This document shows, in pieces, positions 8,265 to 58,893 of a stretch of 64,000 bases of DNA (its first letter is position 1; each line of letters starts with the position of its first letter). Source of the DNA: Zygnema cylindricum (Eukaryota; Streptophyta; Zygnematophyceae; Zygnematales; Zygnemataceae); contig JBBHKE010002598.1 of assembly GCA_037447655.1 (NCBI GenBank), positions 62,001 through 126,000 on the forward strand, written 5' to 3'. The translations under genes were made by a program, and so were the position numbers. The notes under the pieces are model-generated. The model was not told where the DNA came from and ran no database searches. It saw only the letters and a list, made by a program, of their open reading frames with translations.

Positions 8265-9508
8265 CATTTACATGACGTGACGTGTCATGACGTAAAAGTT
8301 TAATCTTCAGAATTGCACGGAACAGTGTCTATTTCTACGCGACGGGGTAATATTCACGACGTGACGTGACATGTCATGATGTGAAATACTTTGCTTCAGC
8401 AGCACACGGAACAGCGTCGATTTCTACGCGACGGGGTAATATTCACGACGTGACGTGACATGTCATGATGTGAAATACTTTGCTTCAGCAGCACACGGAA
8501 CAGCGTCGATTTCTACGCGACGGGGTAATATTCATGACGTGACGTGACATGTCATGATGTGAAATACTTTGCTTCAGCAGCACACGGAACAGCGTCGATT
8601 TCTACGCGACGGGGTAATATTCACGACGTGACGTGACATGTCATGATGTGAAATACTTTGCTTCAGCAACACACGGAACAGCGTCGATTTCTACGCGACG
8701 GGGTAATATTCATGACGTGACGTGACATGTCATGATGTGAAATACTTTGCTTCAGCAGCACACGGAACAGCGTCGATTTCTACGCGACGGGGTAATATTC
8801 ACGACGTGACGTGACATGTCATGATGTGAAATACTTTGCTTCAGCAGCACACGGAACAGCGTCGATTTCTACGCGACGGGGTAATATTCATGACGTGACG
8901 TGACATGTCATGATGTGAAATACTTTGCTTCAGCAACACACGGAACAGCGTCGATTTCTACGCGACGGGGTAATATTCACGACGTGACGTGACATGTCAT
9001 GATGTGAAATACTTTGCTTCAGCAGCACACGGAACAGCGTCGATTTCTACGCGACGGGGTAATATTCACGACGTGACGTGACATGTCATGATGTGAAATA
9101 CTTTGCTTCAGCAGCACACGGAACAGCGTCGATTTCTACGCGACGGGGTAATATTCATGACGTGACGTGACATGTCATGATGTGAAATACTTTGCTTCAG
9201 CAACACACGGAACAGCGTCGATTTCTACGCGACGGGGTAATATTCACGACGTGACGTGACATGTCATGATGTGAAATACTTTGCTTCAGCAGCACACGGA
9301 ACAGCGTCGATTTCTACGCGACGGGGTAATATTCACGACGTGACGTGACATGTCATGATGTGAAATACTTTGCTTCAGCAGCACACGGAACAGCGTCGAT
9401 TTCTACGCGACGGGGTAATATTCATGACGTGACGTGACATGTCATGATGTGAAATACTTTGCTTCAGCAACACACGGAACTGCGTCGATTTCTACGCGAC
9501 TGCATGAA
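8265..9508. repeat. 89-bp tandem satellite, about 14 units, with a three-unit higher-order period
   Basis: The unit boundary CTTCAGCA recurs at 8394, 8483, 8572, 8661 and so on to 9462, exactly 89 bases apart. A diverged first unit starts at 8305 and the array ends inside the unit at 9462. Two diagnostic sites vary: CAGCAGC or CAGCAAC, and TTCACGACG or TTCATGACG. From 8928 onward their combination repeats every three units (267 bases). Each unit contains ACGTGACGTGACATGTCATG, with TGACG motifs and the 10-base palindrome TGACATGTCA. Confidence 0.95.
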
Positions 9509-9575: not shown

Positions 9576-9839
9576 GATCTTGTAACCCTAATCCAAGCTC
9601 TTGACTAAAACTTCCAACCCTAACCCTAACTGTAACCCTAATCCTCATTCTAACCCTAAGCCTAAACCCATTATGAGCCCTAATCAGAAAAACTAATTCT
9701 TAATCCAAGCCTTATCCAGTAATCCTTCCTTTATATTTATTCTAACCTTAGCCCTGAATCTGAAATCTTAACCCTAACCCTAACTCTGATTTCAACTCTA
9801 TTCCTAATCCTACCCTAACGCCTTCCTAGCCCTAATTTC
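9576..9839. repeat. Degenerate CCCTAA (telomere-like) tract
   Basis: This stretch is full of CCCTAA, CCCTAAC and one-base variants, interrupted by unrelated bases, and reads as a decayed interstitial array of the TTAGGG type. It lies between the 89-bp satellite and the start codon of the USP gene. Confidence 0.75.
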
Positions 9840-14376: not shown

Positions 14377-16230
14377 TCACTTTAACCAAACTCCCACATG
14401 AAGTCTCATAATCCCATCGGGAAAATACAAACTCGGATTTCCAATAACTTCACTCCATGGTTTACTAAAAAAGTCCGGAAAACCCCACCCGTCTTTGCAA
14501 ACCTTACTCACAAAATCTTTTTGGACTCTCGGTTTCGCGTCCGAAAAGGAAGTCGACGAATCCGAAGTCGAGGAAATCAATGTAAAACGAGCTTTACAAT
14601 ACGCCTCTTTCACAGTCGAAAAACTATGGATTCTCAAATAAATGCAAAACCTCAGGTCTCCCTCTTGTGTTCTCTTTTTTGCATAAGCGTCGACTGTTAT
14701 CCACACCCCATCTTTCACATAAACCGGTTGCATTTCAATTCTCGAACTCGGGTCGACCCATGTAAGACAAGCCGAGAGAGGAAGCTCGAGAAGGAGAGAA
14801 GCCTCGGGAGGAGAATACGAATTTCTCGGTCTTGTATTCCAAAGGTTTTTTGTCCATCGGGTTTTGATAAAACAAGAGCAAAATCTTTCGGCGTTCGAGG
14901 CTAAGGAGTTGATTACGAGGGAAGTGAGTTCTTTAGTATTCATTTCAGGTTCATTTAAAACAGAGTCTTTTAAGTCGGAGGGAGATATCCATTCGAATCG
15001 AATGTGTTCCGAAAGATCTTCCAAAACTCTCATCCTTTCGTCGATATCTTCGGGGAAATGAAATCGAAGCCATTCGAGAACTGATTCGAAAACTACCTTC
15101 TCCGTCGAAACTCTTAAGTCGTCGGATTCCAAAATGGTTTTGAGAACGTGGGAAGATAAACCCAAGAATTCTGAGAATTCTGCACTTTTATTTAGTCTTT
15201 TCTCGATCATTTTCTCCATCAACGGCCCAAAATGTTCAACGAGACAGTTTTGAGAAGGTTCTTTTAGAGTTTGAATGGCTGGATTTGATTGGAGGGTTTG
15301 GGACAGATCCAAAATAATGGAAGCTTGGGAAGGTTTTAATTCGGAAAGTTGTTTACTTAAAAAGTTTCCGCAAACCTTAACACAATCTTTTACAAGAAAT
15401 TTGTCCGCGATGATAAGAAGTTGAATTAAAGCCTCAAAGGAAGATGTGAAATTATCGGAAATCTTTCCTTGGTACATAACACATAAGAGTTCCATCATGG
15501 CTGGTTCTTCTGCAAAAGAGAAAGTAGAAGGAATGAGAGAAAAAGTGAGAAAAAATGAGGAAAACGAGGACAAATTGAGGGAGAGGGAGAGGGAGAGGGA
15601 GAGGGAGGGGTCATTGATTGTAACATACTAATACTTGATTGGTATTGTATTTCTCACCGCGAGCCAAAATTTTAACCAAAATGGGACGTTTTTTTTGTGT
15701 TTCGACTCTCCCATCCCATTGGCGAAAAGTTTTTGAAAAAATACCACAATTAGGCACATTAAAAATGTTAATACTCGGTTCTACATATTAGGTGCAATAA
15801 TTGGAGAAGTATATATATACTTCGTTTTTTTAACTACATTTTCTCACCATCGGCTGACTTTTGAACCGAAATAGGACAGAGAGATTATAATTATCAATAC
15901 TTCGTAATTACATAGTTACAAAAATTACAGAAGATTAGATATGAACATAAGATTATATGTAGAAGATTATAAATAGTTTTTGGGTTTTCTCACCATCGGC
16001 GGAAATTTGAACCGAAATTGGACGACTTTTGTCGCTCGATTCTTGCATCCCATTGGTGAAGAGTTTTAAAAAGAAATCCGATTTTGCCGCTAGTAATAAA
16101 GAATTGACAGGAATTTTCCGATTTGGTTTTTTAATCGTTTCAGGAAATGAAGAAGAAGAAGGAGAATTTGATTTTTTATTTCCTTCGAAATTTTCAACAT
16201 CGTCGTCTATTTCTCCATCTTCAAATTTTT
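14377..16230 (-). CDS. BTB/POZ-BACK protein of the LRB/POB1 type, 5' end missing in gap
   Basis: Two exons are visible: 16230-15994 and 15509-14377 (stop TGA). The junction is GT..AG and joins ...ISAD with EEPAMMELL in phase. About 455 residues are visible. The first exon begins at an acceptor at 16231-16232, so earlier exons lie in or beyond the assembly gap that begins at 16340. The order is an acidic linker (EDGEIDDDVENFEG), the BTB fold (IPVNSLLLAAKSDFFLKLF, then ELLCVMYQGKI), a BACK domain (VLKTILESDDLRVSTEKVVF), and a C-terminal beta domain ending with FVSK..GWGFPDFF..PWSEV and SLYFPDG. This last block matches plant LIGHT-RESPONSE BTB/POB1 proteins, which recruit substrates to Cullin-3 ubiquitin ligases. 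That role is inferred from family membership. Confidence 0.88.
15642..15890 (-). repeat. Two degenerate copies of the BTB exon 3' end inside its intron
   Basis: The minus-strand segment around 15745-15652 reads KLFANGMGESKHKKNVPF in one frame, parallel to KLFTNGMQESSDKSRPIS of the real exon (about 16075-15994). It is followed by a GTGAGA donor-like site. A shorter copy at about 15883-15841 repeats the last part, again with CGATGGTGAGAAAA. The exon end with its splice donor has therefore been duplicated twice in the downstream intron. Confidence 0.7.
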
Positions 16231-21415: not shown

Positions 21416-22292
21416 TTGTGTAGTCCAATGGAGGACAAAGAATTGCAGGTTAGGGGCCCACCCTCTAGTGTGCCAATCTTCAATGGATTAAGGTTTATCT
21501 ATTGGGAAGCCATGATGACAAGGGCTTTGTGTGAAAAACGATTTTGGGATATTGTTAGTGGACAAGTGAAACGTCCACCTCAAGGAATCCCACCAAGGTT
21601 TGATGGAATAAGGTTTTTAAGTAACAACATGTGTTGCTGCAGAGGAGGAAGATGATGGGGACAACAGTGTGTCCGAAATGGGGAAAGTAAAGGAGACTCC
21701 TCTTACTGCTATTTCTCCTATTCCCACGACACCCGGAGCGGTGATCGTGAAGACCGTGGAGACAAACACTCAAATGTGGGATGACACCAATATGGCTGCC
21801 AAAAATTTCATTCTAAGACACCTTACTCAAGCTTTGGCAACTCCTCACCTTCACGTTTACAAAGCCGAGGGGTTGTGGGTGAGTTTGGTGGATATTTATA
21901 GAGCTGGTAAAATTCAAGAGCTTCAGTTAGCAGAGCAAAAATTGAGAAATTATACTTTCAAAGGGGGAAAGATGCTAGACTACTGTAATGATCTTTCTTG
22001 TTTGTATATGGAGATGGAGAAAGCCGGATGGATAGGTAGAATGAAAATGAAAGTTAACACTCTCGTCATGAAGTTACCCAACGAGTATGAGAATATAATG
22101 TATCTGGTACAGGATATGACTAATAGTTTATGGAAGTGGAATACAGTGGTCCGCATGATATTTGTGCAGGAGAACACAATTGAGATCAAGAGGGGAGGAA
22201 AGAGCATTCAAGCTCTAGCCGCCAAATGGGACAGGTGGAGACAAGATCCAAAAAAGCCATACAAAGGAGACAAAGTTCAGCTTGGAGGATAA
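21416..22292 (+). pseudogene. copia gag (degenerate)
   Basis: The frame opens at about 21429 (MEDKELQ, after the spacer that follows the primer site) and includes FNGLRFIYWEAMMTRAL. It breaks near 21655 and resumes at 21669. The second part contains the typical UBN2-like gag block (WVSLVDIYRAGKIQELQLAE, KLRNYTFKGGKMLDYCNDL). A damaged zinc knuckle (FCKKPVHF) follows at about 22318. Gag forms the particle that packages the element RNA. Confidence 0.8.
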
Positions 22293-22567
22293 AAGGCTCC
22301 AAAGGGCCTTTCTCACTTTTGTAAGAAGCCAGTACACTTTATTGCAGATTCTATAAAGCTGTCGGAGTTGAGGCTCCAAGAGAACCATGGAGGGGATTCT
22401 TCCGGAGGGAAGAAAAATGAAATTGTGGTCACAAAAGTGGAAGGAGAGATTAAGGACAACTCCTCCGAGGAGGATGGAGAGTTTTTATTTGACGAGAGTC
22501 TGGAGGAGAAGGAGATCCCTCGGAGACATAAGTGTGCCCTTGGAGCGATTCGGGAAATTCCACAGGA

Positions 22568-25500
22568 ATGATGGATCATTGACTCAAGTGCATCCATGCA
22601 TATGTGTCGTGATAAGGACCTCTTCACTAAGCTAAGGAAAATCCCAATTGAAGAGATAGAGTATGGGGATAAGAGTGTGGTTACTACGGATCTAGTGGGG
22701 TCGTAGATCTGAAAGTCTTAGTGGAGGGTAAGACTTCTATACTCACTTTCTCAGATGTACTCTATATTCCTCAGCTAAGTAAAAATCTTGTCTCTACATC
22801 TGTGTTAGACGACAAAGAGTTTGATACCTTTACTAGAAATGGAGTTTTTACAGCTAAGTATGGGGATGAAGTCTACTTCATTGAAGATAAGGGTAGCCAA
22901 GGAATGTTTAGCCTTAACTTGAGTGATGAAAAGAAGAATGCTTACTATGTTGGTGTCCCAAAATTGATGATTTGTCATAAGCGGTTGGGACATGTGCACT
23001 TTGATAGGTTGAGGAAAGTGAAGAAGCTTAGTGTAGTAGAATGCATTCAGTTTGGTGATAATGAAATGGCGGATGATTGTAGTGGGTGTGCACTAGGTAA
23101 AGCTCACAAAATTCCTTTTCTTAAAGCCGCAACTTATAGAGGAGAAAAGGTACTTGATTTAATCCACACAGATATCTGGGGACCAGCAAGAGTACCCTCA
23201 GTTGGAGGGAAGAGGTATATGTTGACAATTACTGATGACTGGTCTAGGTACTCTAGAGTTTACTTCCTAAAAACAAAGTCTGAAACACCAACTTACTTCA
23301 AAGAATATAAAGCCTCGAGTGAGAAATTGCATGGAACCCCCATTAAGAAAATAAAGAGTGATAATGGGAGAGAATATACCTCTAACCAGTTTGAGAAATA
23401 TTTGAGAGATGAGGGAGTTCAACACCAGAAAACTATACCACATTATCTGGAACAAAATGGGGTAGCTGAGAGGTTAAATCGAACACTAGGAGATAGTGTA
23501 TGCAGTATGTTGGCTAACAAGAAAATAGGAAAGAGATTTTGGGCAAAAGCCACGAATTTTGCCAACTACATTAACAATAGAGTCCTTACCTCAACAGTCA
23601 AAGGTATGACAACTTATGTGAGATAGGTTGGAACAAAACCGGATATCTCTCACCTTAAAGTATTCGGTAGCCCAGTTTACAGTCTAGATACGGATAAGAA
23701 AAACTGGAAACTTGATGCTAAGGGAAAACTTGGATATTTTGTGGGATATGATGACGATGTCAAGGGATATAGAGTCTATGACTTAGCAAAGCAAGATATC
23801 ATTCTGGTCACACTTGTCATGGATAAAGGCAAGTTAATTAACCCCTTCAAATATACCAAGAAGATAAGAATGAGGTTTGAGTCTGAAAATGACGAGAACT
23901 CTGTTTTTCCCGAAAGGGACATGTGTGAGACAGTGATTGCAGATTCAGGGGAGATCTAAGATACATGAGTGTTACCAAATACCTCACATATTCTAATGGA
24001 ATTCGAGGAGACAGAAGAGGAGGAATCGGAATCATTTTCCATGGATAGGGTAGGGAATGAGACAGTAAGGAGAAACCCAAGACTTCCCTCTATTCCAGCG
24101 ACAGAGTTTTAAGGCGGGAGAAGGAGCAGCAAAAGGATACAAGAGAAACAGGCTGCTCATAAGGTAACTAAGCTATCTCATCCTGATGAGCCACAGTCAT
24201 ACTTGGAGGCAGTGAACAACCCAGAAAAATACAGATGGATTAGAGCCATAAATGATGAGATGGCTTTGATCATGGAAGCAAATACTTGGGAGCTAGCGGA
24301 TTGTCCTCCGGACAGAAAGCCTATTGGTTGTAAATGGGTATTTAAACTAAAACTGAACCCAGATAATACCATTGAAAGATATAAGGCTCGCTTGGTAGCA
24401 AGGGGGTTCACTCTAAAGGAGGGGATTGACTAAGAAGAGACATTTGCCCCATTTGTTCGTTTTCCACCAGTAAGGATTTTCCTCATTCTAGTTGTAGCAG
24501 AAGACATGGAAATCCATCAGATGGATATTAAGACCGCCTTCCTCAATGGTGTGTTAGAGGAACAAATCTTCACGCGGCAACCTGAGGGGATTGTGGAGGC
24601 TGGGGAAGAGAGCAAAGTCTGCAGACTCATAAAGTTCTTATAGGAACTTAAGCAGGCTCCCCGAACGTGGAATAACAAACTAGATGAGTGTCTCACTAAT
24701 CTAGGATATATCCGGATAAACTCTGACCATTCTATCTATATGTTTGAAGATGAGATTGGTGTGATTTTTATCGCAATTTATGAGGATGATCTGCTGGTGT
24801 TAAGTAAGTCTTTGGAAAAGAACACTAACTTAAACCAAGATCTTAAAAAGAGATTTGACATGAAAGATATAGGAGAGGCAAGATATATTTTGGGGATTCA
24901 AATGGAAAGAGATAGGGGGAAAAGGATCAATAGACTCACTTAGAAAGAAGTAATAGGAAATATGCTTGAAAAATTCCAGATAGAGAAAACAAACAGTTGT
25001 ACCATTTCCATGGACTTGAAGAAAGTAAGTGATGGGAGTGTAGAAGGAGAAGTGATAATCTTAGATGATCAAATTAGTCCAGAAGAGAGAGAGTTTATGA
25101 ATTCTATCCCTTACACGAAGGTTGTAGGAAGCCAAATATACTTTATGAATTTTACCAAGCCGGACATAGCGGCAGCAGTTGGAGTACTTAGTAGGAGTCT
25201 TCATGATCCTAGAAAGAGAGACTGGGAGGCAGCCAAGAGATTCATGAGATATTTGGTGGGATATATGGTTGCATTTGGGAGGGAAGCACAGTGATATCAC
25301 TACTTGGAGTGATGCCTGTTATGGGGATGCACCTATGAGAAGATGCACTTTTGGGTATGTGTTGTATGTGGGTGAAGGTGCTTACTGTTGGAGCAGGAAG
25401 CAACAAAAGGTGGTTGTTCAGTCTACTATGGACGCTGAGTATATGGCCTCTTGTTCTGCTGTGAAAGAATATATGTGGGTCAAGTCATTGTTGCAAGAAG

Positions 25501-25772
25501 AGGGGTATATAAAGGAAGGAGTGCATGAAGTCCTTTGTGATAATCAAGCTGCAATTGCAATTGCAGCCAATCCAAAAAATCATTTAAAAGCTAAACATAT
25601 GGACATAACATTGAGCTTCGTAAGAGAAAAATTTGAAAATAAATTTTTGAATCTTGTGTATAGACCTGATGAAGAAATGGTGGCTGACATGATGACCAAA
25701 CCTGTGTCCTCTCCCAAGTTAAAATATTGTAGGGAAAAATGCGGGTTGAAAGAAAAAATAAAATTAGACTAG
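22568..25772 (+). pseudogene. copia pol (protease, integrase, reverse transcriptase, RNase H) with stops
   Basis: The protease region has WIIDSSASMHMC near 22572, where DSGAS is expected. Integrase (22721-23626) shows the HHCC finger (CHKRLGHVHFDRL..CSGCALGK) and acidic residues in HTDIWGP, KSDNGREY and NGVAERLNRT. In-frame stops occur at about 23624 (TAG), 24433 (TAA), 24642 (TAG, inside the LYGLKQAP block) and 24942 (TAG). The reverse transcriptase carries IAIYEDDLLVL where YVDD is usual. RNase H (25269-25772, shifted frame) has WSDACYGD, DAEYMA and CDNQAAIAIA. The stops and the frameshift make it non-functional. Confidence 0.9.
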
Positions 25773-26849: not shown

Positions 26850-28706
26850 ATGCTACCATTTCCTCTTATTAATTAACATCGCTGGTGTTCCTGTAATAAT
26901 CTGAGATTGCTAAAGACCCAAACCAAATCATTTGCTCTTTTAGCTGTCAACCTGTTCATTTTCTTAGAGTGAATGTCAATCTGTTCCTTTTCTTAGAGTG
27001 AATATGGTCATAGTTGACCAATTCCTCTCACATGAGCTGGCAATTATACATTAGGCAAAGATGTTAATTGCTATTTTCTGTAAGATAGGGGTGACAGCCC
27101 CAAACTGTTGCCACCACTTCCACCTTGGCATCTGCTTAGCAAAAGTATTTGTCACCTCCGTCCCAAATATGCCCTCTAAACCTTTATACTTAGACAACTC
27201 ACAGTAGGCCCTAGCCTGGTCTGCCTTATTTGGTAACATCTTATCAAGCATTACATGAAATCCTTCCATTATTTTCACATTTCAAAGTTGACCATACTTA
27301 TCACTTTGGTACTCGGGATGGAGTAAAATGTCGGAAGCATATATGGGTCTATGTGCCATCTCCTATCTGGTGATGAAGGCATTGCCACGTTCAACTCCTC
27401 CAAAATATGCAGGCGTTCGTAATTTCACGTTCCTCCTTTGCTAGATAACTTCACTAAAAACTCCCCAATAGTGTGAAAACCATGATAACCTTCCCCACAT
27501 TTGGGCTCCCTTTAACGTACTCCCTCATCAGCCGCACTAGTGATTATGAAACAGTCCCAACCTCGATTACTCTCGTCCAAAACTTCGGGTTCAGGATAAG
27601 ACCTTTAATCTTAGCACCATCTAACTTGTATGTAGACTTGAATAACCATTGTTTGTAAGCATCTTAAAACATCAAGATCTCCAAGCTATCATTCACTTGT
27701 AAAAACCTCACTAGCATGATAAAATTTGTAGCAAACTTGGTCTCTCTAGGATTCAAAAGCCTAAGTTTGGAGATTTTGTGGAACAAGGCTGGAGTCATGT
27801 GATGATTCATGAAAAATTTCAACATCTCCTTCGCCTCTCGGACAGGTGTTGAAATAAATGATAGCTTGCCCCAATCCTCCAATATTAGGTCCAATACGTG
27901 GGCAACGCATGGTGTCCACGTCATCGAAAGATGCTTTTTCAGAATCATCGAGGCGGCAGCCTTGTTCACAGAAGCACAATCTGTCACAACTTGTACCACA
28001 CGCAGAACCCCCACCGCAATAAATAATTTCTCTAACACCTGACAAACGTATTCAGCATCCTTTATTTTCCCTCGAGTGTTTTCCGCCTTGAGAAACATGT
28101 CACCTTTGGGGGTGACAGCTAGAATGTTCATGAGAGGCGTATCATTAACGATTATCCAACTGTTTGATGTGATGGAGGCACCTGTGATTTTTATGGTGTT
28201 GTAGTAGCTTGCCAAATCGATAGTGATCGTTGCTTTCGTCTCAAACAGAAGGCGATTTCTTATAGTATTCATGTGAGGTAACTTGTAAGACGACCCTATA
28301 TCCCCGGTCTTCTTCAGTGCTACCTTAAAATATGGGTTGTCTAATAGTCCAAACAACATACCATTGGCAAAGAAAGCTTTTGCCCAAGCTACAACGACAT
28401 TTTTTTTGTTATGCATATTGAATATATAATTTATTTTGGTCTGAACACCTTTTACCTTTCTACTCGATCTAGTTCAAGGACATCCAATGAGTTCATCCAA
28501 ATGGGATATGACACGTTTTTGAGAGCTATGAGAAGATGTTGTGGTTTCCATACATTTAACTCGGCTTGCATTTCATCTTGACATAAAATACAAGCTCTAA
28601 TGCCCCCGCTTTTACCATTTCCAAGCAGATGGTTTCTAATCCTAGTTGCTTGACCATTGTATTCGAAATTGCAGTATAGAGACATGCACATATTGTTATT
28701 CCCCAA
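26850..28706 (-). pseudogene. hAT-family transposase with BED finger and DUF659, decayed
   Basis: On the minus strand, a BED-like zinc finger comes first (28706-28452; CNFEYNGQATRIRNHLLG..CILCQ). A long DUF659/catalytic-core frame follows (28416-27664) with ITSNSWIIVNDTPLMNILA, VVQVVTDCASVNKAAA and WTPCVAHVLDLILEDWG. Next is the C-terminal block (27278-27051; WWQQFGAVTPILQKIAINIF). The hAT dimerisation motif appears near 27040 (SCERNWS), followed by a duplicated HSKK-NRLT segment. Frames are interrupted between the blocks, so no complete protein is made. The order and motifs match plant-type hAT transposases, which cut and paste DNA transposons. The terminal repeats were not identified. Confidence 0.88.
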
Positions 28707-42870: not shown

Positions 42871-43348
42871 GTTTTCGTTTCTATTTTGTCTGTTTGTTTC
42901 CATGTCTTTTTGTATTTAGATTGTGGAGAAGACAATTGCCAAAGTTTTAGTCCTTTCAACCAAGGGAATCGACCGATGTTTAGTCCTCAATGGAGATGGT
43001 CCCGATAAACCTTCCAGACCACGAATCGAGGGTTTAAACATCGAGGGAGTAGCGATGATTGGAGAAGATGACCTCGATTTGACAAAATTGACAACCAATC
43101 ACATCGCAGAAGTTCTTTCGTGGCTGGGAGTGGAGGCAGCGAGAGGAACGATATTATCCGAAGTTCAAAGAGTTTTTGGGATGTACGGAATAAATGTGGA
43201 TGCTCGTCATTTGAGTCTCGGTGCCGAGTTTATGACTCAGGAGGGAGATTATCGAGGGTGTAATCGAGTAAGGATCGAATCGAGTCCTTCTCATTTTCAA
43301 AAAATGAGTTTCGAAACTGCGATGGATTTTTTAACGGATGAGACGTGA

Positions 43349-45816: not shown

Positions 45817-47789
45817 TCATGCACACGGCCCAGGATTGGAAACACAGATGTTGGGATTCGATTTTTTCCGAAGTGATCGCAAAAAATTGGCTGTACATGT
45901 GTTGTTGTTTAAGGCTTTGAACGTGTCTTTCTTCTTCGCATTGGCGCGCTTTATAAAACATTTTTTGAGACCTTTGCAATCAGTTGTTTGAGGCAATTTG
46001 ACAGCCTTACTATTGGGTGCTGCGCAGCCTGCCATAATCGTTCCCAAATCTCCAACGTCGAGGCAGACCTGAACGCATGGAAACTGCATCAGTTTCTCGT
46101 GTTGACAAAGCATGTGCACATTCTTTAAAAATGAAACGGAGGTTGCGAGTACAAAATTATGGATTATTTTATTGATTGTTCTGGCCTGTCGTTTTTTATG
46201 ACATACCTCTTCGTTGTGACCCATCACAGAGGTGCCAGAACTATCAATGCGTGAGCAAAATATTCCGACGTTGAGAGTGTAAAACTTGACGGTATTTTGA
46301 AGCTTCTCAGCATCAGGATCCATGAGATTTGCAATGATAGAATCACATGAATCTTCCGATTTGACTTCATAATACTTCACACAAGGTAAAGGGTACGGAA
46401 GATGTCCTCGAGTGATGCACACCTGGAAAACAATAATCCATCAAATGGACAAAATAGACTCTGTTAGTGGTCTCCACAACTTCTCAACATTGAAGCGCAG
46501 TAAACTTTCGGTTCAAAAAAGTTCATCTACAAATAGAATAAATTTCTCCAAACCTGCTGGAATGGCTGAAGCTCGGAGCAGTCAAGATCTGGATTTGGTG
46601 ATTCAGGTCCGGAGAGAGCCGTCAGATTGAACATTTCTTGAATCGAATTACAGCTGTCATCCTGCAAGCATAAGAATTCACTTATGATTTAACATACTTA
46701 TGGTTAAAAATCATGCAAAAAAATTCATGCGTGAAGATGATAAACAAGGAAGAAGAAAATTCAAGAAACCTTTGGTGCGCTCAAAGTAAGTTTATTAGAG
46801 AAATGTTCTTCCATGCATTGTTGGAAATATGAGATGGTCGTACATTGCGTCAATCAGCCGTTACGGCAGTGTAAAAGAATAACTGACCTCAGCGACTGTG
46901 TACGGAAGAGAGCAGTTCCGATAAGCAGTCACATTGACGGATGTCCCAGGGGGCAATGGGATGCTGCAGTTAAGATTCTGCAATTTCCGAAAAATAGTGC
47001 AATGAGATTAACTAATCGGAATGCTTGCGGTGATCGACACTGTTTAGAGTGTGCTTTTTACATAGGCGCATGTCAATGAACCTCCATTATTTTGAACTAA
47101 ATAAAAGTCTTTTTACATGCACATGTGCCTGAAACAGCAGGTGAGGTGAAAGACAAAACGTGAAATGAAAATAAGCATCGTTTCATGAAAAAGCAACTTT
47201 CCATGTGTATTTTTCATCATTTTATGTTTCATGGAAAGAAAACCAAATATAACCACATATATCCGGGTAAGGTACCGCTCATCTCTATTTTACTGCTCAG
47301 ATATTTCATTTTTGTGACATCCAAAAAATACTCATTATTTCTTTTTCCTATCGGAGTGATACTATATGAATGAACAGAATGTGGAATGAGCTAAAAGAAA
47401 AAAATACAGCACAGCCAGTGAAAAAAAAATCATGAGTTTAGTAAAGATAGGGTATTACCGAATGAAAAAAGAGAAACATACTCCTAGCGGGATGCAAAAA
47501 AGAGCTCGTTACCATTCAACTTTAAATCAACATTGACTAGTTTTAACATTTGGAGCAGTTACATTGTTGCCGTATTTTCTAAACATTGGGAAGTGAGCTT
47601 TTGGAGGCTTATCAAACACGACAATTTGAGAAAAGTCATAAAACAGAAATAAATGGGAAGATGTCGCTACCACGTTCTGTTTTGCAAAGTCACTTTTTGG
47701 GACTCCATACACACTAGCGATAGCATTGCAGGTCACGGTTCCACTCTCTGGCACAGTATAATAATTCAAGGCCCCTCCGAGGATGACGG
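45817..47789 (-). other. C-terminal LysM-type repeat region of the LRR-protease
   Basis: Five exons encode Cys-rich LysM-like repeats. The first repeat begins [20 protein letters not shown] and continues through [12 protein letters not shown] to [16 protein letters not shown]. The second has [16 protein letters not shown] and NPDLDCSEL. The third has [16 protein letters not shown] and [14 protein letters not shown] fourth, weaker unit ends the protein ([22 protein letters not shown]). LysM modules bind N-acetylglucosamine polymers, so this end could anchor the enzyme to chitin, peptidoglycan or related glycans. All exon junctions here except the first are phase 0, so repeat units can be added without breaking the frame. 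Confidence 0.8.
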
Positions 47790-50700
47790 CTGCAAAAGTG
47801 AACCAGGATCTGCAGATTATAGCACTTTGCAAACCTCGCATTGCAAAAAAAAACTGAAATTCAGAAACAACTCAAACTGATTCAATAATCAAGAGAACTA
47901 CTGCGTAGCATGTGAGAAACCGAGTTCCATCTTGCCCTTTCAATTTACTTCCTATGACATGTCAAGATTCTGTGAGTTTGTTATTTTGTTATTTTGCTGC
48001 TGACCTGGCACACAGGTGAGAAGGTTCTCAGCATCGCTGGGCGAATAGCCCATAGGGCAAACACAGAGATAAGTTCCCGGATAAAGCACAGAATTCACGC
48101 AAATACCCACGCCACATGGATTTTTGGAGGTAAATGTGCAAGGATTGGCTGCAAGGCCACACAGAACATCAATTTGTATGTTAAAAAAACCATCGATTAT
48201 AAAGAATATATCTGGAGGATTTCCAATCGTCCTTATAATGAAATAATGGATAAAAATACCAAACAAAAGAACTTCAATATCTTTTATCCTTTCCTGCTTT
48301 CTGATCTGGATGGCTAGATCGTGCAATGATACCTTGACATCATAAAAAAAAACAAAAAATATATAATGGGATAAAAACCCAATTTAACTTTACTACCATT
48401 AAATTATGCCCCATGCTATATATTTCTTTACTCTAATAGCGACACTCGGTTTACTGAGTGGCATTTTGGGAGTAAGTAAAAAACCTGGAGCACAAGTTTG
48501 TGTGCCATCCGTGTTAGTGACTGCCACGAAGTTTTCGTCGCATTCACATAGATTTGTTGTGCCTGACGGAATACAAATTCCTTTGCCGCATGGATTCATC
48601 ACTCCCGGACCAAAAAGCGCTTTCAATTTCTTCTTTGAAAAATTGTTTATGTTACAAGGGTCGCCTGCATAAATGTAAAAAATACATACAAATTTAAAAA
48701 ACCATTAACTTTTCTTTTAGATAAGTGATAAATCTCGCTTCAAACTTGAAAGTTTTGGAAAGGGATCAGAAAGGTTTTGATTCATTCCTGGCAAGCAACC
48801 AAAGCTCTCTACGACAAAATACATTGCATTGATCTGTGTTTGGATCCATTTGATAACAATTCTCAAATAATGCAAGAAAAAAAATGTCAACCATCCAAGG
48901 AAAGAATTGGAACATATTATATTTTAATAGGAATCGTAATGACCAGGGGTAGCTGGTCTTCCTTACTTGCATTCTTTACAATTGGTATAAGTGCCGGCAA
49001 GGTATTTATTCCGCAAATTCCGGGCCCTCCAGTAATTTTTAGTCGCATGTAGCCTTTGTCGCCCCAATTCGGGCCCCAAGAATTTCGAATGAGCCAATAG
49101 GGCGGACTGGAGGTCAAATCGTAACCAACCACAACGACCGTGTGGTCCACTCCATCGGAAAAACAATCTTCATCATCAAAGACTCCCTGTGGAAACAACG
49201 AGAAAGGCCTCTTTATCAAATCGAACCGATACACTTATGTAAATCCTTTTAAACTATATAGATTTGAAGAGAATCCGTAGAAAGATAGTTCTCCAAATAT
49301 ACCTAAAAATGAGCCTTACATTGACACAGAAGGAATATTTCCGAAGCCGCTTGAAGAGGCTGCCCGACCGGGCTTAACATAATAGCTAAAATTTTAGAGC
49401 AGGAGATTTCTGTTCTCAATGCAAATAGATTCTTTTTGAAAATTTGAATGCTTCCAATATTTATGGGAGAAATCCAGAGGGGAATAGATACTGAACTAGT
49501 TGTTCCCACTTTGGCCAATATACTGACTTACTGCTGTGGAAGCTACATAGGGCAATTAAGGGCCAACAATTTTGAAAAGGGTTCCCCTTTGGTGGAACCA
49601 ATAACCCACTTCGCAATACATCGTCGTTCGAGGATCGGCGCAGTCAATCAACCAGGATCACTCAAAACAGTCGAACTTGCGTCGAAAATTTCGAAACTTT
49701 TTCGATCAAAAGTCGTTTGCGAAATCAGGATCAGATCAAATCGATCAGATCGATCGACGGAGATCAATCAATCCACGATCATCATCAGATCAAGATCCGC
49801 TGTGAAACGATCAGATCGGATCCGGGCAAAATCGGATCGCACGTCTTTGCAAGCAAATCCGCCAGGCAAAATCGATCAGGCAGAAGAAGGAGGAGATGGA
49901 GAGTAAGAGAGATATAGGAAAAAGATGCCTCACCATATAGTCATACCTTGAACAAACAAAAAAATAGATATCCAAATCACTTGTCAATGGCTAAAAAATT
50001 TCTCATCAAAACACAACTATACAATACCATAAGGAATATGGGCATTTTTAGAGGTCCAAACTGTTGAAATCTAGTATTGAGCTCTGAATTTTTAACAAAA
50101 TTTGTTTCTAAAAGAAATCATAGCAAAATTGTTTTTTTTTTTTAAAGTTACCTTGTTGCTTATGAAACACACGATTGCCTCTCTTTTGGCCGTTCTGAAA
50201 ACCTTGCCGTGTTTGTAGACTGTTGACCTAGACCTTCGTAATGGATTTTAAAAGTTGAATTCGGATTGATCTTAGAAGGGAAAGAAAGTACTTGGAAAAG
50301 GGTAAAGGATGCTCTTGCTCGGATGTTTTTGTTTGGCTAACGAGAAGGACAAAATGCAAAATAGCCTAGGTAACACAGGGCTAAATCCTTGGAGAATCTA
50401 ACTTGGTTCCTGAGCTGCTTGGATGTTATTGTTTGGCGAACAAGATGGACAAATACAAAATAGCCTGGGTAACAGAGGACTATAATCCTTTTAAAACCTA
50501 ATTTGATTCATGAGTGTATAAAAGTTGCAACATTAACAAATCCAATTTTTTGACATCTACAACACGTTAGCCAAGTATGATGCTATATTAGCCGGCCAAC
50601 TTTATACGGAACTCACCATTTTGGGATCATAATTGACAAAGGTGCTACCACTTGCTTCTAAGCTCACGATTGCTGTTTGTTGTTGGAGAGCCAAAAGCAA

Positions 50701-53700
50701 TCCCAGCCAGCCATTCAGTTGGACCCTCTCAAAAGATGATATGGTCCACAGGTTGCTTGTCTGCATATTCCAAGAACTCCCTGGTCAAGCAGACAGAACC
50801 GACATCGCAATGACATGCGACTTAAATTGGAAGGGAAAATACTGTCCCATGGGCTTCAGCAACCATTTTCTACATGCAGCAAGCCTTTATATTTATGTTA
50901 CAAGATATAATAGTAATTCTTTTGTTTCTGTTTTTATTTTTATTATTATTCTGAAATGCATGAGGTAAGAAAATTACTTGTCCTCCTGAGCAAATGCTTG
51001 GATTATAGTCGGAAGCCAACATTAGAGGATTTTCAGAGGCATAGTCAAGGGCCTCTGTTGGCCATCCACCGATAGAACAGTCACGCGCCAACCTGGAGCA
51101 TTTCGAAATTTGCTCCTCTGCAATGTTCGGAACATCTAAACTTCCCGCACTCGTAATGTAAAAGGCAGTTTCAATAGCCGACGTGGATGCAAAGATCCAG
51201 CAAGTGCCTGGAATGCTAGAAACGTCGTTAATAATTTTTGGATAAAAAAGGACTAAAACTTACATGGTTTAACAACTTCCTGTTGTCTAAAAACTTAACT
51301 ATGATAAAAAAAATTGTTGATATTACATATGATTAACGGTGCCATTCTAGCACCAGCTGTTGAAAGTCTATGGAAAATGAAAATGGAAAAAAGATCTTTA
51401 ACAATAAAAAATATTGTATTTGCAACCAGATACATCTGTGCAATTGTCCATTCTTAGTTGACCGTTATAAGGATGATTAAGGGCGGTCTTTCTTAAAAAT
51501 TAAACTTAAGTCGCCTTCGAACACACGTTTTTTAATCATGGCAAAACTCTTTGACTCATCTTGCCATATCCCAACCTGGATCATAACCTGACAAAATCAT
51601 AGTAATGTTATGAAGCAAGGGTAACTGCAAGTTCCATTGACCTCCTTACTAGGTACGAGTCTATGCTGGAATGGTCTTTGACATACTGCAATTTTTCTGG
51701 TCCTTGATTGGTGCCACAGCTCGTCGCTTCACCCAGTTCCAGTTGGTCGCCACCATCCACGACGGTTTGTTGTCGTCATCTGGTTGTATGTATCCCAAGC
51801 TCACATAACGGAAATATTTGTTCAAACGTTTAGGCTTTGCTCCTACACGACTTGTAAGCCCTAAACCACGTTCCTCTGCAGATTCAAACCGAAAATATGG
51901 TTAAACATTGGATATGTGGAAAGGGTTAGTCGACTTTTTATTGATAATGATTTCATTTAAAGTAGCAATCGTTTCATCTTTTATTTAATCAATATTCTTG
52001 CAACGCATACCTTCCTAGCTTGTGGTTCATAAAAATCATAAATTCGAGAAAACCTGTACAACCAACATATGTGAACATATGTCACCAATAATCTAGCAAA
52101 AAGTCATGCGCTACAATAATTGCTACTTACCAAATGTGCAAGTGGCACTGTTTCCACTCGTGTTATACCCTTGGTCACAAGTGCATGGCACATCCAAACC
52201 AGTACAGTAGCCATGACCTCCACAAACTCCCATCGGTTGTGTTGCATTGCAAAACCTCTCACAATCAGATACAGGCCTTCGTGGAGGTCTTAAGCCATCA
52301 CAAGCATCGGCAATGTCAAAACAGTTGTTTTTGACAAAAACACAAGTTGGATTGCTATTCACAACGACGCTCGCTGATGAGAAAAAATTGTTGCTAACGT
52401 CAACTTTGAACTCTGCCAAAGTTTGAAGTCCAAGAATGAAACTGCCAGTGAGAAGGTTGTTCTGCAAATACCTGCAACACCCACAAAAAATGTAACAAGT
52501 GTCGTTATTTGTTCTCCTCGTTTGTGACATTTGCCGCACAAAATCACGATTCTAGAAATACCTAACTGCTACACTTTATTAATAGATAGCTCAGATTTGT
52601 CACCTACGTGGGAACGTATTTGACCCTTATTCATACCATTGTTTGGACTATGCATCATCATCCACGTCACTCAATTTTGAAATGGAAGATAAAAGTAATA
52701 AAAATATTCTAATTTTGGAGGAAACGATAATTGGGAATTTTCAAAATTGCCTCATCTTTAAATTGTCGAAAAAACGTTATGGAGGCGACCAAATCCAAGT
52801 TTTAAAACTGTTATTTTTCTTTTTATATTTTACAGCCTTCTAATAATTGCAAGATAATGCTTAAAAATATGGTTTGGACGTGTACTTTTCATATTGCAGG
52901 CATTCTAGACTCCAAATATTACAACGACAATTGCAAGTTTTATGCTTGTGATTACGTTTTTGCTGCCATCATACCATTAACAATATTTGTGTCTTAAAAG
53001 CAAATAAATGACAAATAAAGAGATATAACTTACAGCTTTTCGAGTTTTTTAAGATTAGAAAAACTTGTAGGCATTGTGCCCATCCACTTGTTCGTGGACA
53101 TATCTCTGCAACATAGTCGACAACATAGTCGGCATATTGCAGGAAAGGATAAATAATCAAGAACTTGGGTACTTGTCTGGTATGCGGTAGGCTCAACTGT
53201 CTCCTTACTTTCATAGTCAATTACAAAAATTGGGTTGATTGTTGATTAACTTACAGTATCCGCAACCTGCTTAGGCTGCCTATATTTGGAGGTAAAGTAC
53301 CATTAAAATTGTTTTCGTCCAGATACCTGAAACATTCATTTGAAGTAGCTGCCTGCGCTTTAGGAGTGAACGATGGCATCTTCAAAGAAGCATATAAATA
53401 GCCTTCAACCAAAAGCTAACAGTACAAGAGCTGTAACGGTATGCAACCCATCATTGTTTAAACCAGGCATAAGTCAAGGATGCATTAACAAATAGAGAGA
53501 GCATACGTGTACCACCTCCACTTAAACAAAAATGTTGGATATAAATGTACTTGTAATACTTACAACTCTTGGAGTCTTGTCAAATTCATAATACCAGAGG
53601 TAATTGGACCTATTAGGTTGTTTTGAGAGAGGCGTCTGCAAACCAACAATCACATCACCACAGTAAAATGCGATCGACATTTATGTTAAAAAATGGAACA

Positions 53701-56700
53701 TCGCATTTACCTCTTTTTTATGACTTTCTGAATTTTCTCTGCCATATATTTGATTCTTTTTGCTTCCCTCTGAAGTTTTGACCCAAACGGAAACCTGCAC
53801 TTAGTTAATTCTGTGCCCACACCCTTGAAATATAGTTAAGGAAGTTAAGGATTTAAAAATAGAGGGGCCATATTTATTAGCTTAAACTGTAACTTAACGA
53901 TGTCATGTTTATGCAAAATGTTATTTGCTTCTTTTGTGTGTTTTTCCCCGTTGAATCTGCATTACTTCCATCACACTCATTAGCATCTTGCAATATGTTG
54001 CAGACATCATCTTTTGAGACAGTTGTGTCTATGTATTCATTCATGTTCTCTAATGGTTGAAATGAAACACAGTCATCTTACAATACTTGAAGACTCGTCA
54101 AATTTTCGACAGATGCTGGTATCCCACCACTCAACTGGTTTTTTCTCAAATTTCTGTCACAAATCAAAGCATCGCACTTTTAAGTACCGCACCAAAAACG
54201 GAGGCACGTTTGACCCTTTTTCGATCAGTTTTTTTCTAGCGTCAGTCAATGTGATCCTGAACTCAATATCTGTTGAAAATTTTAGGGAAATCCAAAATCC
54301 TCCAAATTTGGACGCAAGTTTGGAGGACAAAAGGTTATTTTATTTCAGTTCTTTTTGTTTCTTTTATTTAAAATAGTAGCTTATTTTGTACTCCTGCTAT
54401 TTTGTGGATTTATGATGTCCTTTATTTTTTTCTGGTTTGAATCTCACAAAAATAATATACATTTCATTATTTGGGAAAACATGTATATCCAGGCGGTCTT
54501 TTTGAGCCCATTTTTTCCATGCATTGCAAAAGTTTGAAAAATTAAAAACCTGGAGCATAAAAATCTAAAAAATGATTTTTTTTTCTTTTTTTCTTCATTT
54601 GGTATAAATCTATCTTAAATCTTTGAATCTTATGGGAGACACTCAAATATTTATACGGAAACCCCTTCACAGCCTCACAGTCACATTTTATGACTGTTTT
54701 CTAACATATCTAATGTTAACATTATGTCGTCTGGAACAGCACCGTACGTGTCTTTTAGGTTGTTTATGGTTTTCTGACAGGAAAAATTAAGTCTTCATGT
54801 AGGAGCATAAAATAAAATTCAATTTAAAACCAACAAAAAAAAACACCAACTATGATGACTTTGACCCCCAAATTAGAGGGCTTGAAGCTTTCCAGTTTTC
54901 AGCATTTAAAAAAAAAAACTGAAAAGCACGTGATAAAGGCTAAGAAAAATCCACCTTGAGATAGACACTTATTCTTTGGGTGGATTAATTGATGCATTGA
55001 TTTTTTATTTTTTATTGGTTTGAAATCGAAGTTTGCTATATGAACCAAAAATCCAGCATTTTTTTTGTAACACTTTTTCCTTTTTTTTAATAGATACGCA
55101 CCATGCATTTTAAAGCAAACCATCCCCTCCCATGGCAGTAATGATTTATTTGTTTATATTTTCTTTTTCGGTTCAAAATTCCGTTCAATGTTATACCAAC
55201 CTTTTTAAACCAAGAAGATGGATGGTTCTTCTAATTTTAAAAGCTGTCACATTGGGGTTACCTCCAATGGGCTTAAATGCATTAAATTTCCTCGTTCACC
55301 AGAAAACAAGCTTTTCGTGTAGCTATCAATCTTCGCTAGAAGGCCCTCAAAAACCACATTTTTTTGATTTCTTTGCACGGTTCTATGACCGCTGTTGGGA
55401 TCGATAAAATCTAGTATTTTTTTTTGATTTAGAGGTCACGCCAACAGATGTGTCTCTATTAAAAAAAATCCGATTTGAGCAAAAAAATGTTTAGTATATA
55501 TCAGGTTCAGCTGCAAACCTCGACATGTTTTACACTTCTTTTTTTTGTTTAGTATTTGTACAACCATTTTAGTGACCAACACGTACCCTGTTGATAATCA
55601 CAGTACGTATCGTTGACGGATCTAGTATTAAAGGATCGATGGATGAAAACGGGTCCCATTACTCGTTCTCTACTTTTAACTTAGAAGGCCACTTTTGTAT
55701 TTTGGTAAATATGACGACAAAAAATACGGATGACACAAAACATTCCCTAGTCCGAGGTTCTTTAAATTGATCATTGAGGAAAAATCGTGAGTGAAAGTAG
55801 CTCTAGCGACGCACGTAAAACTCTTGTGCAAACATTTCTGTCTACGGCTTGAAGATTTATGATGATATAGAAATAGTCACGCAAAAGCGATGGAAGGAGT
55901 TCTTTAGAAAGGAAAAGGAGAGAAGTGGGAGTTAAATAAAACGAGGCACAAATGAGAAGCGCCAAATATCTATCACACATATCCCATACGCTGTTTTTTG
56001 CTGGTGATTCCACAAGTGAGAGTCTTCCATTCAACTAGATGTTCCAGTTTTCAGAAAGATCCGATGCATGATTAAAGAACATGTTATGATTCACATTAGA
56101 ACCATTTTTTTTTCATAAATATGTACGGATTGATAGAAACCGTACTTGTAACTATGAATCTGTACTTCGAACAGGGACAAAAGAAATTTATGCCACTGAA
56201 TTCGTCTTGAGAGACTGATATTATTGTTTTGTTATGGGACAAAAAAATTGCCATACTCACAATGATCTAAGCTTTCGTAAATTTCCCAGAGACATTGGAA
56301 TGGATCCACGTAAATCATTGAAAGAAAAATCTCTGAAATATAAATCATTGAAACAATATTGTTATAATCACGTTAATCTCATGAAATTGAATTCCTTCTC
56401 AAATCACCACCTTTAGAGTCTTCACTACCAGTTCATCAGTTGCTCATGCAGAATGCCACGAATTCTCATAACCAGCATATGTGCTACAATCGCCAATTAA
56501 GCCTAATCAAGTGCCTATGTCTTCACTTACAGCTCTAGAAGAGTATCCAAGAGGCCTATGGCTTCCGATATGATCCCTCCCAAACCAAGTCCTGAAAGAT
56601 CCCTGCATTAGAAAACATGAGCCTTTGATAATCACTTTATTTTATTTTCAAGTGATGCGAATATTGAGAATTACTGATCAGACAAGCTTGCTAGACTAAA

Positions 56701-58893
56701 AGGGTTGGAATTGCAAAATGTGCTCTGAACATCCAATCATGTAACCCTGATTGTATTGATTAGGTTCTCTCTTGTTTAAATGTCCACCAACCGCTCTTCC
56801 CTCTCCAGCCAGGTCAAGGATCGTTCTTTTTCTTCAGTGGGTGAGTATCAAGGGCTTATCTTAGCCTGCTGGTGGAATCAAGGGAAACTACTCACAGTTG
56901 CTGATTCAATCAGTTAGTCTTCTAGTGGAGGCTTAGGATTGGTGGAGGGGCCTAGGCATTCTCTTTATTTTTCACCTCAAAACAAGGATTACCTTTGGTA
57001 ACCTATATAATAGGTTAGCCTCAAAAAGAAGGCGAGAACATAACTTGACCACTTTTTCCTATGGTTTTTCGATTTTTTTTTTAAAAAGAAGCCGTCTTTC
57101 CATTCGTTCAGATCCTCTCAGTGCAAATAACGCAAAAAGATTGTTGGGATTTTAGACGGAATGATATAGCAAACTTAATGTATATATGAGGTAGAATTTT
57201 TCAGTACTTCTTAGAGAAAATTACGGGATGTAATGAGCGACTAATTTTGAGAAGTGGGAGAAGTCGAATTGTTGTGATAGGGAAGAGCTACATTGGAGAG
57301 GAAATGAGTCACCGTTAATAATGAATGATACTTAACAGATTAGACTGACAACTGTTAAATTAGTTATTTTTTTGTTGCAGAAAGTCGATGGCATTATTAT
57401 ACATGGTTTGGATTTCAAACGTGTAGAACGATGAACAGACATTTTTTAATTGTTAAATTTGCTGTTATATATCGTGCATAATGCATTTCTTATCCATTAA
57501 AAAGTAAAAAATACATACAACTTGATTACGATCTTGTTCTCGCAAGTCACTTGGCTCCACTTGCATACATCGGAAGAATCTCCCCATGTTGAAAGTTTGT
57601 CACTTCGGTCGATCAGCCCAGCTTTGATTCGCAGCAAGATACTTCCTGATCCCACATCATCAATTGGGAATCTTCAACATACCTCCGTGTTCATTTGCTA
57701 AGAACTCTCCCATCCTGCACTCAATGGAACTCTCTTGTTTTCGCAAAGCATGAATACAACAAATAGTCATGGAAACCCCTGATATGATGTTCGTCATGCT
57801 AACTATGACCTATCTTGATTTATATGATTAGTTGCCGAATTCCAACAACTATCTTGTTGCTAGAAATTTGGAGCTTCTGACTTGTTTTTCGAAAACTATA
57901 AATTGGCCCTGGAGGAAGGGAACATTGCAAAGAAACTGATGTCATTGGTATTTAGTAATGAAGTAATTTGTGCAATTTATTGTCAAATTTCAAACATAGA
58001 TAGTCATCGCGGTTTTTTCCTTTTTAAGTTTCAAGCATTGCTAATATTTAATTCGTCAAAAATAAAGTAGAGAATAAGATTTTGAAAGAATTTGATGGGA
58101 ACAACTCGGCATGAAATTGCTTTTGGATCATTTTTTATTTGTTTAAAGTCGTACCTGGTGACATTGGTCCAAATCAAAATGGGAAAGGTGACAATGGTGG
58201 TGGGAGGATGAGCAAATTTGTGCCACACAAGAACATAATAAACTAAAAGTTTGAACACGATAAATAAATGAAACCAAGAAAAGAAATAAAAGAAATGAGC
58301 GCAGAAAGGAGGAATGGAGAGTTGGTAATACAAGCTAGAAAATGATAGAATAACGTATCACCTGGTAGTGGTGGTGGTGAACTTGGAGGAAGAAGACTCA
58401 AAGGAGAAGGTGGGGAATTTGGAGGAAGTGAAGAAGGTTGAGAATTTGGTGGGGCGAGAGGTGAGGAGGGAGGTGATATGAGAGGTGGAAGACGAGGGGG
58501 GCGGAGAAGGGGTGGCGAAAGTAGGGGAGGACGTGGGGTTGGTGGAGTGGGAGAGGGAGGACGGGGGGCGAGAGGGGGTGGATTGGGTGGAGGAGAGGGA
58601 CGAGGGATAGCGGGTGGAGAGGGTAGAGGAGAAGAAGCGGGGAGACGGGAGGGAGGAGGAGAGGATTGTGGAGTAGGAGAGGGAAGAGGGGGGGCAGGAG
58701 GTGGTGGATTGGATGGAGGAGAGCGACGAGGAGGGAGAGCGGGTGGAGAGGGTGGAGGAGAAGAAGGGGGGAGACGGGAGGGAGGAGGAGAGGATTTTGG
58801 AGTAGGAGAGGGAGGAGGGGAGAAACGAACGGGCGGTGGTGATTGCGACACTACAAAAAATGGAAAAAGAAGCCCCACGCCATTACTTGCCAT
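45817..58893 (-). CDS. Multidomain secreted-type protein: Pro-rich, LRR, EGF, papain-like protease, EGF x2, LysM array
   Basis: One gene of 19 hand-spliced exons: 58893-58362, 57645-57519, 56602-56531, 54153-54082, 53635-53564, 53326-53255, 53105-53034, 52471-52131, 51875-51687, 51207-50978, 50760-50617, 49186-48967, 48664-48485, 48148-48005, 47789-47671, 46977-46888, 46661-46554, 46422-46207 and 46068-45817. Every border is GT..AG and every phase matches, giving 1083 aa and a TGA stop. Residues 1-178 are Pro/Ser-rich after a short hydrophobic start ([18 protein letters not shown]). Next come an LRR N-cap (to about 220), LRRs (to about 370), a Cys-rich EGF-like domain (to about 453), a C1A protease (about 495-705), two EGF-like domains (about 715-822) and LysM-type repeats to the end. 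Chitin-binding LysM papain-like proteases are known in volvocine algae; the LRR head is the unusual part. The start and signal peptide are the least certain features, and an earlier exon is possible. Confidence 0.88.
48005..48664 (-). other. Two EGF-like exons between the protease and LysM regions
   Basis: Each exon encodes one EGF-like unit and is flanked by phase-1 introns, the classic shuffling arrangement for EGF modules. Exon 48664-48485 reads [20 protein letters not shown] with a closing TCAP. Exon 48148-48005 reads [14 protein letters not shown], then CVCPMGYSP and a closing TCVP. Equal phases at both ends make them symmetrical modules. Confidence 0.85.
48967..51875 (-). other. Papain-family (C1A) protease domain of the multidomain gene
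   Basis: Exons 51875-51687, 51207-50978, 50760-50617 and 49186-48967. Mature-type N-terminus [19 protein letters not shown], then [13 protein letters not shown]. Inferred catalytic residues are oxyanion Gln513, nucleophile Cys519 (six residues apart, as in papain), His656 ([12 protein letters not shown]) and Asn676 ([17 protein letters not shown]). [10 protein letters not shown] fits the usual C-x-GGW segment. The common GSCWAF is STCWIF here. No I29 prodomain (ERFNIN type) lies between the first EGF domain and the protease; only about 40 residues separate them. Activity against a particular substrate is unknown. Confidence 0.9.
49725..49850. repeat. GATC-dense cluster in an intron of the protease gene
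   Basis: About a dozen GATC sites lie within roughly 130 bases, many as CGATCAGATC or GGATCAGATC, forming a degenerate short repeat. It lies in the intron between the exons ending at 50617 and starting at 49186. Confidence 0.75.
52131..57645 (-). other. LRR head and first EGF-like domain of the multidomain gene
   Basis: Exon 57645-57519 is an LRRNT_2-type cap ([20 protein letters not shown], then [10 protein letters not shown]). Five exons of exactly 72 bases (56531, 54082, 53564, 53255 and 53034 as low ends), all in phase 2, each encode one 24-residue plant-type LRR, such as [20 protein letters not shown]. Exon 52471-52131 starts with another repeat ([20 protein letters not shown]) and ends with the Cys-rich block [27 protein letters not shown]. 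Plant-type extracellular LRRs of this kind usually bind proteins or peptides. Confidence 0.9.
54154..56530. other. Long intron of the LRR region, possible decayed LRR exon
   Basis: A 2.4-kb interval separates two adjacent LRR exons. I find no intact exon. At 54773-54702 (minus), a 72-base segment after a CAG acceptor reads [17 protein letters not shown] in one frame, which resembles an LRR. It is out of phase with its neighbours and lacks a GT donor. Confidence 0.5.
58362..58893 (-). repeat. Pro-rich coding exon with internal duplication
   Basis: This first visible exon encodes Ser/Pro-rich sequence of the hydroxyproline-rich glycoprotein kind. A unit of about 45 residues beginning [17 protein letters not shown] is repeated as [16 protein letters not shown] and continues in the same pattern. 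Such regions are usually extracellular, heavily glycosylated spacers in green algae and plants. The Gly/Arg-rich plus-strand frame over it is its antisense shadow. Confidence 0.8.

Follow-up and report, generated by a model that had tools for sequence, protein, structure and literature searches.

A window of 64,000 nucleotides from the zygnematophyte alga Zygnema cylindricum (contig JBBHKE010002598.1, positions 62,001 to 126,000; all positions below are those of the window, which means this whole stretch) was analyzed, and the gene under study was found on its minus strand from 58893 to 45817. The gene was reconstructed as 20 exons with 19 GT-AG introns, which give an open frame of 1125 amino acids followed by a stop codon. 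The predicted protein contains, in order, a short hydrophobic N-terminus, a proline (Pro)-rich region, an LRRNT domain, seven leucine-rich repeats (LRRs), an epidermal growth factor (EGF)-like module, a papain-type C1 protease, two further EGF-like modules and a LysM array. A sequence-only reading of the same DNA had proposed a gene of 19 exons and 1083 amino acids; the place, the strand and the in-phase multi-exon structure stood, and the present model differs in the counts. The junction between the LRR and protease parts was borne out as it had been described: exon 52471-52131 ends in phase 1 at a GTAAGT donor, and exon 51875-51687 starts in the same phase with the protease N-terminus.

The exons, all on the minus strand, follow the modules closely. 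Exon 1 (58362-58893) encodes the hydrophobic N-terminus, signal-peptide-like by eye, and a Pro-rich extensin-like region in which Pro makes up 49% of residues 18-177. Exon 2 (57519-57645) encodes LRRNT_2, and the next six exons, each of 72 nt and in phase 2, carry one repeat each, namely LRR 1 (exon 3, 56531-56602), LRR 2 (exon 4, 56261-56332), LRR 3 (exon 5, 54082-54153), LRR 4 (exon 6, 53564-53635), LRR 5 (exon 7, 53255-53326) and LRR 6 (exon 8, 53034-53105). Phase-2 LRR exons of 72 nt are a familiar pattern of plant LRR genes. LRR 7, a Cys-rich C-terminal cap and EGF-like module 1 share exon 9 (52131-52471), which has the phase-1 end. Exon 10 (51687-51875) contains a linker with a YFRYxSLGY-type motif and then the first part of the C1 protease, as far as QKNCS; exon 11 (50978-51207) contains the catalytic Cys (STCWIF), exon 12 (50617-50760) the middle part of the protease, and exon 13 (48967-49186) the catalytic His and Asn (IRNSWG). 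EGF-like modules 2 and 3 occupy exon 14 (48485-48664) and exon 15 (48005-48148), and 7, 6 and 6 Cys were counted in modules 1, 2 and 3. The LysM array begins in exon 16 (47671-47789), runs through exons 17 (46888-46977), 18 (46554-46661) and 19 (46207-46422), and ends in exon 20 (45817-46122) with the C-terminus and the stop.

Two other splicing choices were tried and rejected. A microexon of 15 nt before the LRRNT (57683-57697) was dropped because the Pro-rich exon joins the LRRNT in frame without it and because its donor word was absent in three of four paralog loci, where the LRRNT acceptor was conserved; the fourth locus had no match at this position. An exon 12 acceptor at 50780 gave stops, and 50760 was used instead.

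In Pfam searches with the 1125-residue model, Peptidase_C1 was matched with 128.8 bits (cut-off 20.7), LRRNT_2 and LRR_8 with 32.7 and 45.6 bits (both above cut-off), and one LysM unit at residues 866-902, in exon 16, with 31.5 bits (cut-off 20.9). The four profiles that the sequence-only reading had named for a domain search were thus recovered. The EGF profile reached 17.7 bits against a cut-off of 21.5. The same profile exceeded its cut-off in the homologs P0078 (30.4 bits), P0009 (25.4 bits) and P0012, and was below it in P0003. A LysM unit lying mostly on exons 17-18 was similar to the LysM domain of chitinase A (5bum, E 0.003), and the tail of a structure model of P0009 (mean pLDDT, the model's own confidence score, 61.3) contained four beta-alpha-alpha-beta units by reading of its secondary structure. 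When this model was compared by Foldseek, LRR receptors predominated among the 50 matches listed, and the protease part was left uninformed by the search. No kinase was matched in the window protein by Pfam, which separates it from LRR receptor-like kinases, and a simple hydropathy scan revealed no 19-residue stretch with a mean above 1.5 (highest 1.5), so that no transmembrane helix was called. NCBIfam matches of P0078 and P0003 were only far below cut-off.

To decide between one gene and two neighbours, the paralogs in the same genome were informative. The first protease exon was listed at 22 places. One of them is the window's own and one belongs to a near copy on contig C2631; the remaining 20 were read upstream over about 4.3 kb each (2.7 kb in L052). 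The LRR/EGF exon was located upstream of the protease on the same strand in 19 of these 20 loci, and in the same 19 it was preceded by 72-nt phase-2 LRR exons. A Pro-rich open frame upstream of the LRRNT was found in all four paralog loci read for it. Past the last protease exon, eight loci on contigs of the 20 were read downstream, and the exons of EGF 2, EGF 3 and LysM (exons 16-18) were in order in all eight; exon 19 was matched in seven and exon 20 in four, partly since the stretches end there. A more distant locus (L088) contained an EGF exon with protease exons P1, P2 and P3. The last protease exon had at least 99 matching places in the genome at 51-96% identity, the window's own included (its row reads 84%, since the match runs past the exon edge), and this number may include duplicate contigs or broken copies, C364 and C825 having identical scores.

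Selection was estimated as the ratio of nonsynonymous to synonymous substitution rates (dN/dS), pooled per exon by the Nei-Gojobori method, for 17 of the 20 exons (exons 1, 11 and 12 excepted) with 4 to 20 loci per exon. The ratio was below 1 in all 17 exons. Compared with the window, it ranged from 0.08 in exon 13, the His/Asn exon and the lowest of the 17, to 0.46 in LRR 4, and over all pairs from 0.08 to 0.56; these values go with dS of 0.36-1.52 and with counting only exons matched over more than 75% of their length, which favours conserved copies. As the module order recurs in 19/20 loci upstream and 8/8 downstream with dN/dS below 1, the arrangement was considered to be more than chance.

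The locus is therefore read, from genomic sequence, as a single fusion gene and not two neighbours, in agreement with the paralog loci, with purifying selection and with gene predictions from other genera, and it is almost certainly a real member of a multi-member family. The alternative that an LRR-EGF gene and an adjacent C1-LysM protease gene were wrongly joined was judged very improbable: order and strand are kept in 19 of the 20 paralog loci, both halves are also joined in Closterium and Mesotaenium predictions, and the junction is phase-compatible. What speaks for it is that the gene model is built on genomic DNA with no transcript seen across the junction, that no LRR/EGF exon was seen in the roughly 4.3 kb upstream of L046, one of the 20 loci, and that Closterium P0038 is predicted as C1-EGF-EGF-LysM with neither LRR nor lectin. 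L046 also counts against the explanation favoured below, as do three further observations. L087 has P1-P3 and a second P2 further upstream with no EGF exon within about 2.2 kb, a stop is present in three of four aligned last exons, and in L089 on contig C775, a more distant locus like L087 and L088, stop codons interrupt P2 and P3; therefore, the 99 listed places include some broken copies.

The near copy on contig C2631 (L010, L012 and L036) was 98.9% identical to window positions 50842-52708 and 84-90% identical further downstream, and it had no match over the stretch holding exon 12. This pattern suggests either a mosaic of paralogs or a join made during assembly.

A first homolog search gave 75 proteins, comprising 63 from Closterium, one transcript-derived protein from EukProt (P0003) and 11 others matched in C1 only; P0078 was added by a second search. 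An LRR head had been thought peculiar to this protease, which was not supported: an LRR stretch was present in 37 of the 64 best homologs (the 63 from Closterium and P0003), and eight predicted proteins (P0009, P0018, P0019, P0027, P0078, P0080, P0082 and P0084), seven from Closterium and one from Mesotaenium, had the same order without lectin. P0078 (jgi/Mesen1 ME000166S01720; Mesen1 is taken by us to be Mesotaenium endlicherianum) showed LRRNT, LRRs, EGF, C1, EGF-EGF and LysM in the order of the window gene and matched its protein in one co-linear stretch of 836 amino acids at 36% identity; it is a gene prediction, on which no study was found, and differs by a longer LRR stretch and, by eye, by the lack of a Pro-rich N-terminus. 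The Closterium proteins P0009 (CLOP_g11111), P0018, P0019 and P0027 likewise showed LRR-EGF-C1-EGF-EGF-LysM, but the identity of P0009 to the window protein was about 29-40% and in pieces, and many Closterium relatives differed by an added legume lectin or by Ser in place of the catalytic Cys. P0003 shared the C1-EGF-EGF-LysM tail at 40% identity over 96% of the queried region, but its head had no LRR and combined a Pro-rich linker with two stretches of legume lectin. A shorter C1-EGF-EGF-LysM piece was present in P0085, from a transcript assembly, and in P0001 the gene predictor seems to have run two adjacent copies together. Outside Closterium, C1 and LysM occurred together only in P0003, P0078, P0083 and P0085 among the matches listed. 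No volvocine C1-LysM protein was among the matches of the two homolog searches, which rely on shared short words and of which the second scored only the 8000 best candidates. A junction query (residues 369-600) gave nothing at E 0.001 among 1403 candidates, and its sensitivity was poor, as junction-bearing relatives exist.

The head of these proteins was variable. Of the 83 legume lectin matches in this genome, some precede C1 places: by eye, 12 such places had a lectin match no more than 6 kb upstream and in the same orientation. In one of the 12, L094, a lectin was followed on the same strand by protease exons P1 to P4. In the Pfam lists, Lectin_legB was carried by the LRR-bearing P0007, P0011, P0032, P0033 and P0046 and by P0051. 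In passages of a published report, Lectin_legB is described in 26 combination architectures and as prominent in Zygnema (PMC11096116). In the C1 tree, 44 sequences formed one clade (96/92) against five other C1 sequences; several branches in this tree are long, and the sequences from this genome are composites of individually located exons, with 6-9 kb between the exons in C2069, C761 and C1958. Twelve LRR-plus-lectin and three lectin-only sequences formed one Closterium clade (100/100), in which the lectin-only predictions are possibly truncated. P0003 and L094, both with lectin heads, adjoined LRR-headed sequences of this genome. With head labels that include the Pfam lists, the tree needed 6 head changes against a minimum of 2. 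An LRR-headed ancestor would be the simpler reading, because LRR heads are found in Mesotaenium, Closterium and this genome. We propose a zygnematophyte LRR/lectin-EGF-C1-EGF-EGF-LysM family, to which the window gene would belong by its position in the clade and by its tail, whose exons were found in 8/8 loci.

Alignment with papaya protease omega (1ppo) revealed that the oxyanion Gln and the catalytic Cys, His and Asn are intact in the window protein. Of 24 copies of the second protease exon that were read in this genome, the window and the C2631 copy among them, 23 keep the catalytic Cys and one, L078, has Ser. Among 37 aligned homologs chosen from the 64 best (36 from Closterium and P0003), 21 had Cys at this site, 15 had Ser and one had a gap, and His and Asn were present in all 37. 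The Ser variants included P0012, P0025 and P0005, and in 10 of the 15 the next Trp was also Ser. The family might then consist of binding proteins more than enzymes, that is, of secreted receptors or decoys for glycans and proteins in which proteolysis is secondary and of which the window gene merely retains the catalytic residues. The Ser replacements in 15/37 homologs, with His and Asn retained throughout, and the one Ser in this genome are in line with this idea; the retention of Cys in the other exons and the strongest constraint of all 17 exons tested in the His/Asn exon (dN/dS 0.08) are not, and the idea appears improbable to us.

No I29 prodomain (PF08246) was detected by Pfam in the window protein up to E 1, nor up to E 0.01 in P0078, P0003, P0009 and P0012, and none was in the Pfam lists of P0001-P0064. 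The YFRYxSLGY-type motif directly precedes the mature protease, and its YAS/YVS-type end recurs in many aligned homologs; it may serve as a short propeptide. Land-plant papain-like proteases (protease omega, ficin and the RD21 type) share the C1 fold and the catalytic residues; they possess an I29 prodomain, RD21 has a granulin tail, and to our knowledge none of them carries LRR, EGF or LysM. No granulin match was obtained in the window protein up to E 1, which distinguishes it from the RD21 type. LRR-extensins (LRX) share the plant-type LRR and a Pro-rich extensin-like stretch, and LRX2 (6qxp) was among the solved-structure matches of the head, where many LRR receptor kinases ranked higher. 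The extensin part of an LRX comes after the LRR, and in the window protein the Pro-rich stretch precedes the LRRs, so that the protein is not an LRX; we know of no LRX with a protease or LysM. A chitin-binding (LysM) cysteine protease of Volvox is reportedly induced by wounding and by sex pheromone; no paper on it was found in the literature searched, and it is not known to have an LRR head. Each module of the window protein is already known, and the architecture, by the database predictions, is not unique to the window gene, yet no description of an LRR-C1-LysM protein was found in the literature searched (titles and abstract openings).

The explanation that we favour, tentatively and with somewhat less than even confidence in the whole of it, is a secreted, glycan-tethered C1 protease placed between two recognition parts, with extracellular defence as its most likely use. 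The protein is probably secreted, and the Pro-rich extensin-like stretch at its N-terminus could anchor it in mucilage or in the wall. For the LRR head we expect a protein or peptide as ligand, and for the LysM tail a glycan containing N-acetylglucosamine (GlcNAc); chitin-type glycans are the first guess, because the best solved-structure LysM match is that of a chitinase. The protease would thus be brought onto its target and cut there. The large zygnematophyte family keeps the C1-EGF-EGF-LysM chassis and varies in the head, which is an LRR stretch, a legume lectin or the two together. The family size and the varied heads made defence, directed at microbes that bear chitin or peptidoglycan, the first choice.

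Several results weigh against this explanation. The N-terminal hydrophobic run comprises 11 residues, which is short, and its likeness to a signal peptide was judged by eye only. No I29 prodomain was found that would keep the enzyme inactive, and, given the Ser replacements in 15/37 homologs, activity would not be the norm for the family at large. The variability of the LRR face was calculated on 12 of 21 sequences, grouped into four classes of repeats that held 8-12 sequences apiece (LRR 1, 3 and 7 left out). The mean entropy at concave positions was 0.82, 0.20, 0.89 and 0.52 bits, compared with 0.61, 0.81, 0.63 and 0.50 bits at other variable positions, slightly higher in three classes and lower in one. 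A hypervariable LRR face was therefore rejected, as concave positions were not clearly more variable than others, and this unremarkable face together with the purifying selection would lend no support to a fast arms race.

Given the LRR face without hypervariability and the extensin-like stretch, a role in the wall or in mating fits nearly as well. In that case the LRR and Pro-rich parts would recognize a self peptide or the wall of the alga itself, LysM would bind the GlcNAc-bearing matrix of the same alga, and the protease would trim proteins of the wall or mucilage as the alga grows or conjugates. The purifying selection in the 17 exons and the LRX2 match of the head are consistent with such a self-directed protease, and passages on the Penium secretome report an LRX1-like protein and cysteine proteases, with no indication there of membership in this family (PMC6027541). 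About 100 listed places in one genome and the lectin heads of some relatives are not readily explained in this way, and we regard the self-directed role as rather unlikely. Surface receptors of land plants use LRR, L-lectin and LysM as their recognition parts, and the present family occurs in the algae closest to land plants. A coupling of recognition to extracellular proteolysis in these algae, and the control of a papain without I29, become testable with this gene.

In the remainder of the window, no Rfam match was obtained at the gathering cut-off, and several protein-coding pieces and repeats were recognized. An exon-like open frame on the minus strand (2055-2765) matched Bac_rhodopsin with 77.8 bits, which indicates a microbial-type rhodopsin in a streptophyte alga. 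BACK and BTB were above cut-off and MATH below it at 14377-15627 on the minus strand, with a run of unread bases nearby (about 16.3-17.0 kb). Copia-type retrotransposon pieces were located on the plus strand at 27-461 and 21621-25772 (gag 44.6 bits, integrase 52.9 bits), of which 27-461 and 25248-25772 were read as Copia by eye. On the minus strand, 27664-28473 matched DUF659 with 114 bits, a domain that occurs in hAT-like transposases. An exon of the RNA polymerase largest subunit was identified at 42920-43348 on the plus strand (RNA_pol_Rpb1_5, 61 bits). From 8316 to 9500 an 89-bp unit is repeated in tandem (13.3 copies, 98% matches), and AACCCT-type repeats follow at 9616-9672.

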